DNA of 36,571 nt, taken from positions 1-36,571 of the forward strand of contig JAJFFZ010000200.1 of NCBI GenBank assembly GCA_021776395.1, given 5' to 3'. The notes beneath the pieces were generated by a model, which worked only from the letters and a program-made list of their open reading frames with translations, was not told where the DNA came from and made no database searches. Numbering within the stretch: the first letter of the stretch is position 1; every line of letters starts with the position of its first letter. Shown here in pieces: positions 75 to 30,385 of this stretch. The stretch is from Hyphococcus sp. (GTDB lineage Bacteria; Pseudomonadota; Alphaproteobacteria; Caulobacterales; Parvularculaceae). The translations under genes were made by a program, and so were the position numbers.

Positions 75-791
75 CTAACCAGTTCGGACACTAACAACAT
101 TCCCCGGATCGCGCGCCAGCATCTCGCGCCCAATCGGATAAACCCCTTCAGCGCCCATCACCCAGGCGGTGAAGCTGTCAAACAACGGCGCATAGGCCGC
201 ATCAAGCACGTTCAGCCCGCCGGTATAAGCGCCTATTGCCGGCATGATGATGCGTTGGTTATCTTCGCCGCCGACCGCAAAACAACGCCTACGGAGCATG
301 CGTCCCTCGGCGGCGACCCGTGCGCAAGGATGGAGGTGGCCGGCGATTTCTCCGGGCGCGGCGCCAGCTTGCGGCTCATGGCGGAAAATCAACGGGCCGA
401 TCTGCTTTTCATGCACAGTCTCGGCAACAAACCGCGCCGACGGCGCCGGATCGTGATTGCCTAAAATCCACAGCCAGTCACTCTGGCGCAGCAGCGTTTG
501 CAGCGTGTCGGCGTCCTGGCTCTCCATCCGCGCCTCCGCCTCGCGATCATGAAACGCATCGCCAAGGGAAATCACGCAAGCGGGGTTATATTTCTTGACC
601 AGCGCCGCCAGCCGCATCAGTGTCGTGCGCGTATCATAAGGCGGCAACATCACGCCGCGCGCCGCAAAGCTCGATCCCTTTTCGAAATGCAAGTCCGAGA
701 CAATCAGCGTTTCGCGCGCACGCCAATAGAGAGCGCCGAGGGGGTCGGGCGTCAGGTTTTCTCCGTTGATAAAAATATTGGTTGTCTGCAC
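75..791 (-). CDS. pdeM: Ligase-associated DNA damage response endonuclease PdeM (metallophosphoesterase)
   Basis: 238 aa ORF (GTG start) with metallophosphoesterase motifs SDLHFEKGSS, SLGDAFHD, LGNHD and GHLHP; downstream of an Lhr-like helicase on the same strand. Confidence 0.88.
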   Translation of the reverse strand: MQTTNIFINGENLTPDPLGALYWRARETLIVSDLHFEKGSSFAARGVMLPPYDTRTTLMRLAALVKKYNPACVISLGDAFHDREAEARMESQDADTLQTLLRQSDWLWILGNHDPAPSARFVAETVHEKQIGPLIFRHEPQAGAAPGEIAGHLHPCARVAAEGRMLRRRCFAVGGEDNQRIIMPAIGAYTGGLNVLDAAYAPLFDSFTAWVMGAEGVYPIGREMLARDPGNVVSVRTG

Positions 792-949: not shown

Positions 950-3466
950 CTAACCCATCGCCGCGGCAATGAGATCGGCGGAGGCGGTTTTCAACATGGC
1001 TTCGCTGGCGTCCTTGGCGACGTTCTCGCGGCCGATTTCCAGCATCACCGGCACCGCCAGCGGCGAGACCTGTACCAGCGCAGCGTGATCGATGTGGGTT
1101 TGCACTCGCGCCAGCAGTGCTTGCAGGCGTTTGAGGTCTAGAAACCCGCTCGATGCATCCGCCCACGCCGCCCGCATCAACAGATGCTCCGGCTCATGCT
1201 CACGCAACACGTCGTAAATGAGGTCCGCTGAGAAAGCGATTTGTCGGCCGGTTTTTTCCTGACCGGGATATTTGCGCTCAATCAGCCCGGCGATCACTGC
1301 GCAATTTCTGAAAGTGCGTTTCATCAACACAGCTTCGGCAAGCCAGCTTTCGAGATCGTCGCCGAGCATGTCCTCGTCAAACAGCGCCGCCATATCAACG
1401 TCGCTCATATCCTGACGGCTCCATATGGACAGCGCATATTCGGTTGGCGCAAAACCAATCGGCTGTTTGCCAAGCCGCTCCAGCCGGCGCGTCAGCAACA
1501 TCGCCAGGGTCTGGTGCGCCAGCCATCCGTCAAACGGATAGCAAACCAGAAAATACCTGTCCTGATACGGAAAGGTCTCAATCAGCATTTGGCCGGGCTT
1601 GGGAATGCGCGCTACCTCGCGCTGTTTTTCCAGCCAGACGCGCACCTGCTCCGGATAGGCGCTCCAGCTTTCCGGGTCAGACAGCATCGCGCGCACGCGT
1701 TCTGCCAGATAGGTCGACCACGGAAATTTATTGCCGCCCCAGGTCGGAATGCGCGGCGCCTCGCTCACCGTGCGCGAGACAATCGCGTCGCCGCCCTCAA
1801 TGCGTTCCAGCCGCAAAATTTCGCCGGCAAAATAAAACGCATCGCCCGGCGTCAGGCTTTCGAAGAACCACTCTTCGAGCGTGCCTAATTTGCGTCCCGC
1901 GCGCAAAGGCGCGCTCTTATTATTTGGGCCGCCTTCGCGGCCCGCGCGCAAAGCCCCCTTCCCGCTCCCCAGCCGCACATTCAGCGCCGGCGCCTCAACG
2001 ATGGTTCCGACATTCATCTTATATTGCTGCGCCGCGCGGCCGTCGCGGGCGGCGTATAGCCCGCCCGGGGTTTTGACAATCCGGCAGTAGCGGTCATAGC
2101 GCTTCAGCGCATAGCCGCCGGTGGCGACGAAGGCGACGGCGTCGTCAAAGTCCTTGCGCGTAAGGCTTGCATAGGGCGCGGCGGAGCATATCTCCGTATA
2201 AAGAGCATTGGCGTCAAAAGGCGCCGCGCATGCCATGCCGAGAATATGTTGCGCCAACACAGCAAGCTTTCCTACTCGCGGCGGGGCGCCAGCGAGCGCG
2301 CCCTCGACTATCGCCTGTTTCGCGGCGATGCATTCGAGCACCTCCATGCGGTTTGCCGGCACAAGCAGCGCCCGGCTCGGCTCGTTCATGCGGTGATTGG
2401 CTCTGCCGATGCGCTGGGTAAGGCGGCTGGCGCCTTTCGGCGCGCCCATCTGAATGACGAGATCAACATCGCCCCAGTCAATGCCGAGATCAAGCGTCGA
2501 TGTGGCGACCACGGCGCGCAATCGCCCCGCCACCATCGCCGCCTCAACCTTACGGCGGCGTTCAACCTCCAGCGATCCGTGATGCAGCGCGATCGGCAGA
2601 TTGTCGTCGTTCAACCGCCACAGCGCCGCGAATGTCGCCTCGGCCTGGCTGCGGGTGTTGACGAAAACCAGCGTCAGCCCGGCGCTTTTGATTGCCGCAT
2701 AGACGTCCATCCCTGCAGGCCGCCCGGAATGTCCGGACCACGGGATGCGCTCTTGGGAAACCAGAACATCGACCTGCGGCCTGGCGCCGGCGGCGGCGCG
2801 AATGAGTTTGGCTGACGTCACGCCGGGGGTGTTTTGCGGCGTCAGATAATCGATGAGCGGGCGCGCATCAGGCACTGTGGCCGATAGCCCCGCCATGCGC
2901 ATTTGCGGCGCCAGCACGCGCAGCCGCGCCAACGCCAGCGACAACAAATGCCCGCGCTTGTTGGGGATCAGCGCATGCAGCTCATCAAGGATGACGCGGT
3001 GCAGGCCTTTGAAATATTTGGCGGCGTCCGGCGATGCGAGCAGCAGCGACAGGCTTTCCGGCGTGGTCATCAAAATATCGGGCGGTTGATGTTTCTGGCG
3101 CAAGCGGCGCGATGGCGGCGTGTCGCCGGTGCGGGTCTCAATCGCGATATCGAGGCCCATCTCTTTGACCGGCGTTTGCAGGTTGCGGGCAATATCGACA
3201 GCCAGCGCTTTTAACGGCGAGATATAAAGCGTGTGCAGGCGGCCCTCACGCGGAACGTTGCGCCCATCCAGCGCAATCAGGCTCGGCAAAAAACCCGCCA
3301 GCGTCTTGCCGCCGCCGGTGGGCGCAATCAACAGGTGCGAGAGCCCCGCGCGATCCGCAACAACGCACTCAAGCTGGTGCGGACGCGGACGCCAACCCCG
3401 CGACGCAAACCAGTCCGCAAATTTGGGCGGCAAAGCTATTTCAGAATGTTCTGGACCATCGAGCAT
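950..3466 (-). CDS. Ligase-associated DNA damage response DEXH-box helicase (Lhr-like)
   Basis: 838 aa; Walker A APTGGGKTLAGFLP, DELHAL, SATVPDA, and C-terminal helicase motifs STLDLGIDWGDVDLVIQMGAPKGASRLTQRIGRANHR. Confidence 0.92.
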   Translation of the reverse strand: MLDGPEHSEIALPPKFADWFASRGWRPRPHQLECVVADRAGLSHLLIAPTGGGKTLAGFLPSLIALDGRNVPREGRLHTLYISPLKALAVDIARNLQTPVKEMGLDIAIETRTGDTPPSRRLRQKHQPPDILMTTPESLSLLLASPDAAKYFKGLHRVILDELHALIPNKRGHLLSLALARLRVLAPQMRMAGLSATVPDARPLIDYLTPQNTPGVTSAKLIRAAAGARPQVDVLVSQERIPWSGHSGRPAGMDVYAAIKSAGLTLVFVNTRSQAEATFAALWRLNDDNLPIALHHGSLEVERRRKVEAAMVAGRLRAVVATSTLDLGIDWGDVDLVIQMGAPKGASRLTQRIGRANHRMNEPSRALLVPANRMEVLECIAAKQAIVEGALAGAPPRVGKLAVLAQHILGMACAAPFDANALYTEICSAAPYASLTRKDFDDAVAFVATGGYALKRYDRYCRIVKTPGGLYAARDGRAAQQYKMNVGTIVEAPALNVRLGSGKGALRAGREGGPNNKSAPLRAGRKLGTLEEWFFESLTPGDAFYFAGEILRLERIEGGDAIVSRTVSEAPRIPTWGGNKFPWSTYLAERVRAMLSDPESWSAYPEQVRVWLEKQREVARIPKPGQMLIETFPYQDRYFLVCYPFDGWLAHQTLAMLLTRRLERLGKQPIGFAPTEYALSIWSRQDMSDVDMAALFDEDMLGDDLESWLAEAVLMKRTFRNCAVIAGLIERKYPGQEKTGRQIAFSADLIYDVLREHEPEHLLMRAAWADASSGFLDLKRLQALLARVQTHIDHAALVQVSPLAVPVMLEIGRENVAKDASEAMLKTASADLIAAAMG

Positions 3467-30210: not shown

Positions 30211-30330
30211 CCCCCATCCCCGGCTTCGCCGGTACTTCCCCCACAAGCGGGGGAAGAAAGAGGTTGCAACAAGCTCAACCTAGTTCCTCCCCCGTTTACG
30301 GGGGAGGTGTCAGCGAAGCTGACGGAGGGG
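30211..30330. repeat. Paired (BIME-like) palindromic repeat within korA-korB
   Basis: CCCCC..CCGGC-TTC-GCCGG (30220-30232), CTTCCCCC..GGGGGAAG (30235-30256), linker, CCTCCCCCGTTTACGGGGGAGG (30286-30307), GTCAGC-GAA-GCTGAC (30309-30323), G-tract. Confidence 0.88.
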
Positions 30331-30385
30331 GCATCGTCCCTCAGTCAGCCCCGCACCCCAACCCCTCAGTTCAAGGACGTCCGCA

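Follow-up and report, generated by a model that had tools for sequence, protein, structure and literature searches.

An in-frame copy of a dispersed 45-nt double-hairpin repeat in a ligase-associated helicase gene of Hyphococcus

Introduction

Palindromic elements that lie in frame within genes are known best from the intracellular Rickettsia. A pair of hairpins inside a helicase gene of Hyphococcus sp. (assembly GCA_021776395.1, contig JAJFFZ010000200.1), an organism close to Marinicaulis (now Hyphococcus, Parvularculaceae), raises the question of where this stretch came from and how it came to lie within the reading frame. A first-pass annotation, made from the sequence alone, had proposed that a palindromic element was inserted in frame here, in the manner of Rickettsia palindromic elements (RPEs). 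We followed up this proposal in the window, i.e., the whole 36,571-nt stretch of DNA that was analysed, and across the 28 genomes of the genus. The assembly that holds the window is a metagenome-assembled genome (MAG) of 3.01 Mb in 258 contigs, 83% complete, and the copy numbers reported below rest on incomplete MAGs.

Results

The helicase gene carries a net insertion of 45 nt

The proposed in-frame insertion was borne out by comparison with the orthologues of the genus: filled and empty sites differ by exactly 45 nt net, in frame, and the insert is present only in our genome and in its sister G025. Of the 22 further orthologues in the genus that extend to the site, 21 are empty, including those of G021 and of G033, whose helicase is 91% identical, and the empty site is shown to be the ancestral state. 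Alignment of these homologues, which had been suggested as a check, also set the boundaries of the insertion (Table 1). The loop is not conserved as protein sequence in relatives, being absent from the 21 empty orthologues and of variable length in Alphaproteobacteria generally. In a tree, our genome (G000) and G025 group together (97/90), with G033 next; the helicase of G025 and its insert match GenBank JAADIQ01 (L054). The spacer between the hairpins is identical in both filled helicase copies and variable elsewhere, which points to one insertion.

Table 1. Features of the helicase locus, in window positions
Feature	Position	Strand	Evidence and remarks
pdeM, ligase-associated endonuclease, adjoins helicase gene	75..791	-	TIGR04123, 223.5 bits
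Ligase-associated DNA damage response DEXH box helicase, 838 aa	950..3466	-	ORF; TIGR04121, 1061.7 bits against a cut-off of 850
Net 45-nt insertion relative to empty site, encodes 15 aa EGGPNNKSAPLRAGR	1896..1940	+	Alignment with empty congener sites and G025; ends uncertain by ~3 nt
Double-hairpin palindromic element, one copy of genomic family	1897..1944	+	Alignment and covariance model, 62.8 bits, E 1.3e-11 (this copy is among the 25 used to build the model)
Hairpin 1, GCGCGC-AAAG-GCGCGC	1899..1914	+	Sequence, fold, compensatory changes across copies
AT-rich spacer TCTTATTATTT	1915..1925	+	Differs among copies; same in G025
Hairpin 2, GGGCCGC-CTTC-GCGGCCC	1926..1943	+	Sequence, fold, compensatory changes across copies
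Native flank overwritten by copy of element's other end, length unchanged	1941..1954	+	G025 keeps GPKRPGR, window has GALRAGR

The insert is one copy of a dispersed repeat family

Folded as DNA, positions 1895-1945 form both hairpins (-19.2 kcal/mol, z = -3.8; none of 200 shuffles was as good), exactly where the first-pass annotation had placed them. The reality of the element, however, rests more decisively on its membership in a genomic repeat family. With the window stretch alone as query, nine other places were found in the same assembly at E ≤ 8.2e-5, and a consensus query found further copies; 25 copies were then aligned to build a covariance model, which matches about 29 places in our genome at 42.9 bits or more. 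The helicase stretch is thus one copy of a dispersed repeat family, whose other copies in the host genome lie both between genes and within ORFs, the bulk of them outside long ORFs. Matches were found in all 28 genomes of the genus, and few or none in the other genera of the family in a family-wide search.

In the consensus (CCGCGCGCGAAGGCGCGC, an AT-rich spacer, CGACCGCCTTCGCGGTCGG), an AT-rich stretch of ~12 nt lies between two GC-rich hairpins, whose loops are GAAG and CTTC. Double-sided compensatory cells in the stems number 30 across 131 distinct copies, compared to a null mean of 1.8 and a shuffle maximum of 8, indicating that the hairpins themselves are kept. In several genomes the units form tandem arrays with a period of 45 nt. 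The element had no match to a known RNA family in Rfam, and its exact-core pattern had none in viral_contigs, so that a viral origin is not supported. Several copies (L024-L028 and related loci) share a longer conserved surround, with TTCGCTCGCGGCTAATCC...GGGGGCCTGCGCGGG upstream and GGGGCGCAGTCGCGCCC downstream; some members of the family thus move, or are copied, as larger mosaic repeats.

Insertions in three further genes

Three further genes were found to carry in-frame insertions of the element, each a multiple of 45 nt. In our own genome (contig 49), a 658-aa ORF has 15 extra residues (ARERMLADNNQTAFA) relative to G033, G034 and G032. The dus gene of G022, encoding a tRNA-dihydrouridine synthase with a detected Dus domain (L367:1152-2207, C35), has a 45-nt in-frame insert encoding 15 residues, and 22 congeners are empty at this site. 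A secreted PDDEXK_11 protein of G025 (L288:1066-1782, C71) carries four tandem 15-aa units, 60 residues in all, between its signal peptide and its domain, and its sole homologue found, in G021, carries none. Since the unit length is divisible by three and an average of 3.6 frames out of six are free of stops, an insertion can survive inside a gene.

Two other copies in our genome also lie in ORFs, here named by eye. One (C231, L356:408-486) appears to disrupt the reading frame of an RHS/YD-repeat-like ORF, suggesting that insertions need not be harmless. The other (C212, L355:1487-1534) is a diverged copy near the C-terminus of a prohead-protease-like ORF, with its second hairpin replaced by CGGGTCG-CGACCCG.

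An overwritten flank and possible template switching

The insert had also been described as flanked by an imperfect direct repeat. The repeat itself is present: CCCGCGCGCAAAG occurs at 1896-1908 and again at 1941-1953, and the 20-mers at 1889-1908 and 1934-1953, 45 nt apart, are 90% identical. It does not, however, form a pair flanking the insert, since comparison with G025 assigns the first occurrence to hairpin 1 and the second to replaced native helicase sequence. Here, in our genome only, 14 nt of the native left flank have been turned into a copy of the far end of the element, while G025 retains the native sequence. The best reading of the overwritten flank is that it was converted, or copied by a template switch, from a point one 45-nt unit away; a tandem duplication with a later deletion would account for it too.

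We examined the flanks of 145 copies, mainly the best matches in a subset of genomes, found by a simple position matrix rather than by the full model. No target-site duplication was seen among them: a flank match of at least 4 occurred in 25 copies, compared to 25.5 expected, the observed number equalling the shuffled one. Together with the native flank of G025, this rules out that the direct repeat arose by target duplication. Copies often lie between the arms of other palindromes, and an inverted complement of at least 6 bp spans the element in 50 of the 145, compared to 11.4 (maximum 20) expected by re-pairing flanks, although these are copies and not events, and since shared host repeats and tandem arrays are not independent, the number of events is overstated.

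These observations bear on the possibility that template switching between hairpins during replication spreads or rewrites the element with no dedicated enzyme. Such a process would account for the tandem units of period 45, for the 14-nt overwritten flank of unchanged length, and for the nesting between the arms of other palindromes without target-site duplication. Yet a constant net 45 nt at unrelated gene sites is more orderly than fork errors would predict, and we therefore consider this explanation a real possibility that falls somewhat short of even odds.

Other palindromes were observed in the window itself. The host palindrome TTCCCCCG-CGGGGGAA stands at positions 1-20 without the element, and a palindromic repeat, TTCCCCCGTTTACGGGGGAAGTGTCACCGAAGGTGACGAAGGGGG, is found at 1-45 and at 30288-30331, the two being 91% identical; elsewhere in the genus, the element lies between the arms of this repeat. 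Positions 847-932 hold two hairpins in opposite orientation, ATTACCGGA-CTTGT-TCCGGTAAT (851-873) and ATTACCGGG-ACAAG-CCCGGTAAT (906-928), with TGTC-like tags and CCA tails that fit the description of a CGTC-REP dimer. These CGTC-like repeats (851-928) are a family separate from the element, and they host copies of it elsewhere. The spacing at this place is ~135 nt shorter in the sister L054, and the hairpin pair may be another recent insertion.

RAYT genes and the element

Another explanation takes the element for a REPIN that a RAYT (REP-associated tyrosine transposase) mobilises. A RAYT gene scored above the cut-off in 10 of the 28 congeners, our own genome included (C217); it was NF047646 that detected the latter, as PF01797 missed it. 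Genomes with a RAYT have more matches to the element (Mann-Whitney p = 0.03, relatedness not controlled), and the lack of target-site duplication together with the preference for hairpins fits an HUH enzyme. On the other hand, the element was found within about 1.5 kb of the RAYT gene at none of nine RAYT loci, and the RAYT genes that were inspected are adjoined by other inverted repeats, mostly of the GTAG type. In our genome, the GTAG-type repeat GGCGGGCAAATGCCCGCCCTAC lies just downstream of the RAYT gene (L405, C217:4358-4783). Moreover, three genomes without a RAYT match have many matches to the element, namely G040 (100% complete) with 51, G031 (99%) with 27 and G025 (91%) with 60, counts that include copies scored on both strands. 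As for the tags, GTAG was found on none of the 145 flanked copies, and CGTC itself, the one form counted among CGTC, TGTC and CCTC, at 2 of 145 left ends and 6 of 145 right ends. Taken together, mobilisation by a RAYT appears unlikely.

Reading frames and the helicase protein

The insert lies within the WH_Lhr domain (residues 387-569) of the helicase. An AlphaFold2 model of the protein (mean pLDDT 80.8) places it in a loop that joins the strands 494-501 and 522-531, and in which residues 503-517 have a pLDDT below 50. The insert is accordingly predicted to be disordered and to loop out from the tip of a beta-hairpin, which fits a surface loop, as which it had been suggested for modelling, and one that would be tolerated. 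Aligning the sequence with that of the solved Lhr helicase 5v9x gave no useful placement of the insert.

That selection favoured the insert as an addition to the helicase could be argued from the frame being kept open in two species, and from known intragenic REPs being frequent in replication and repair genes (PMC3733652). However, the element is read in frames -2, +1, +1 and +2 in the four genes, i.e., in three different frames, and thus contributes no common peptide. Frame -2 is open in all 131 distinct copies, but column shuffling also leaves it open in 98.9 of 100; column composition is enough to predict how well open frames are kept, and selection holding one frame open was rejected. Given also that the loop is predicted to be disordered, we regard a selected addition as highly improbable. 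Finally, a local loop expansion or an assembly artefact, rather than a mobile element, can be set aside almost entirely, for although loop length does vary across Alphaproteobacteria, the dispersed copies of the same DNA rule out a local duplication or a low-complexity loop, and the presence of the insert in a second, separately assembled MAG makes an assembly error unlikely.

Discussion

The reading that we favour, with a probability of about 0.9, is that the helicase stretch is one member of a non-autonomous, REP-like family of double-hairpin elements with units of 45 nt, and that it was inserted once, in the ancestor that this species shares with its sister G025. Following this single insertion into the helicase gene, the copy would have been tolerated rather than selected. 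The family as a whole may have spread by a single-stranded-DNA route that favours hairpins, either through an HUH-type enzyme that acts in trans or through template switches at stalled forks. More speculatively, and with the odds clearly against it, this selfish 45-bp palindrome, its unit being a multiple of three, might multiply head to tail within genes and so supply proteins with new 15-aa repeats, of which the four-unit protein of G025 would be an example, and might spread without a dedicated transposase by entering hairpins during replication. With its 28 genomes, the genus offers empty and filled sites, tandem states of one to four units and widely varying copy numbers, and makes testable both the movement of palindromes that lack a tag or a dedicated transposase and how often palindromes add protein sequence.

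How does this element compare with known systems? Unlike a classical MITE, it lacks a target-site duplication. Mitochondrial double-hairpin elements are likewise mobile, made of two hairpins and without a known transposase, and may be a parallel, although those elements, unlike this one, are organellar. Our literature search found no paper joining Parvularculaceae and REPs. The CGTC-tagged REPs of Alphaproteobacteria are opposed hairpin pairs with GC-rich stems, 4-nt loops and no dedicated transposase, and they include intragenic copies and copies within other palindromes (PMC3733652). Intragenic REPs, many in replication or repair genes, have been described, as have REPs within other palindromes (PMC3733652). 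The element shares their two opposed hairpins, GC-rich stems and 4-nt loops, is likewise without a known dedicated transposase and also has copies within genes and palindromes, but lacks the CGTC tag and the initial AT of their stems. It resembles GTAG REPs and REPINs (PMC3116915, PMC3733652) in its paired hairpins, its tens of copies and the occurrence of RAYT genes in the genus, and differs from them in that it bears no GTAG tag, that the RAYT genes have GTAG repeats of their own and that many copies reside in RAYT-less genomes.

RPEs are the classic in-frame case as summarised in PMC10969869, and the work of Ogata et al. (2000, 2002), as cited in PMC10969869 and PMC3733652, presents them as dispersed palindromes lying between genes and in frame within genes of unrelated function, with no known transposase. 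Like them, the element lies in frame in unrelated genes (the helicase, dus, the PDDEXK_11 protein and the 658-aa ORF). It is distinguished from them by its 45-nt unit, the first RPEs being put at about 150 bp in the account of PMC10969869, and by having no conserved encoded peptide. The resemblance that was first proposed holds for how the element works, on a comparison with RPEs by description. Judged in this way, the element behaves like an RPE or a REP but fits none of the described families.
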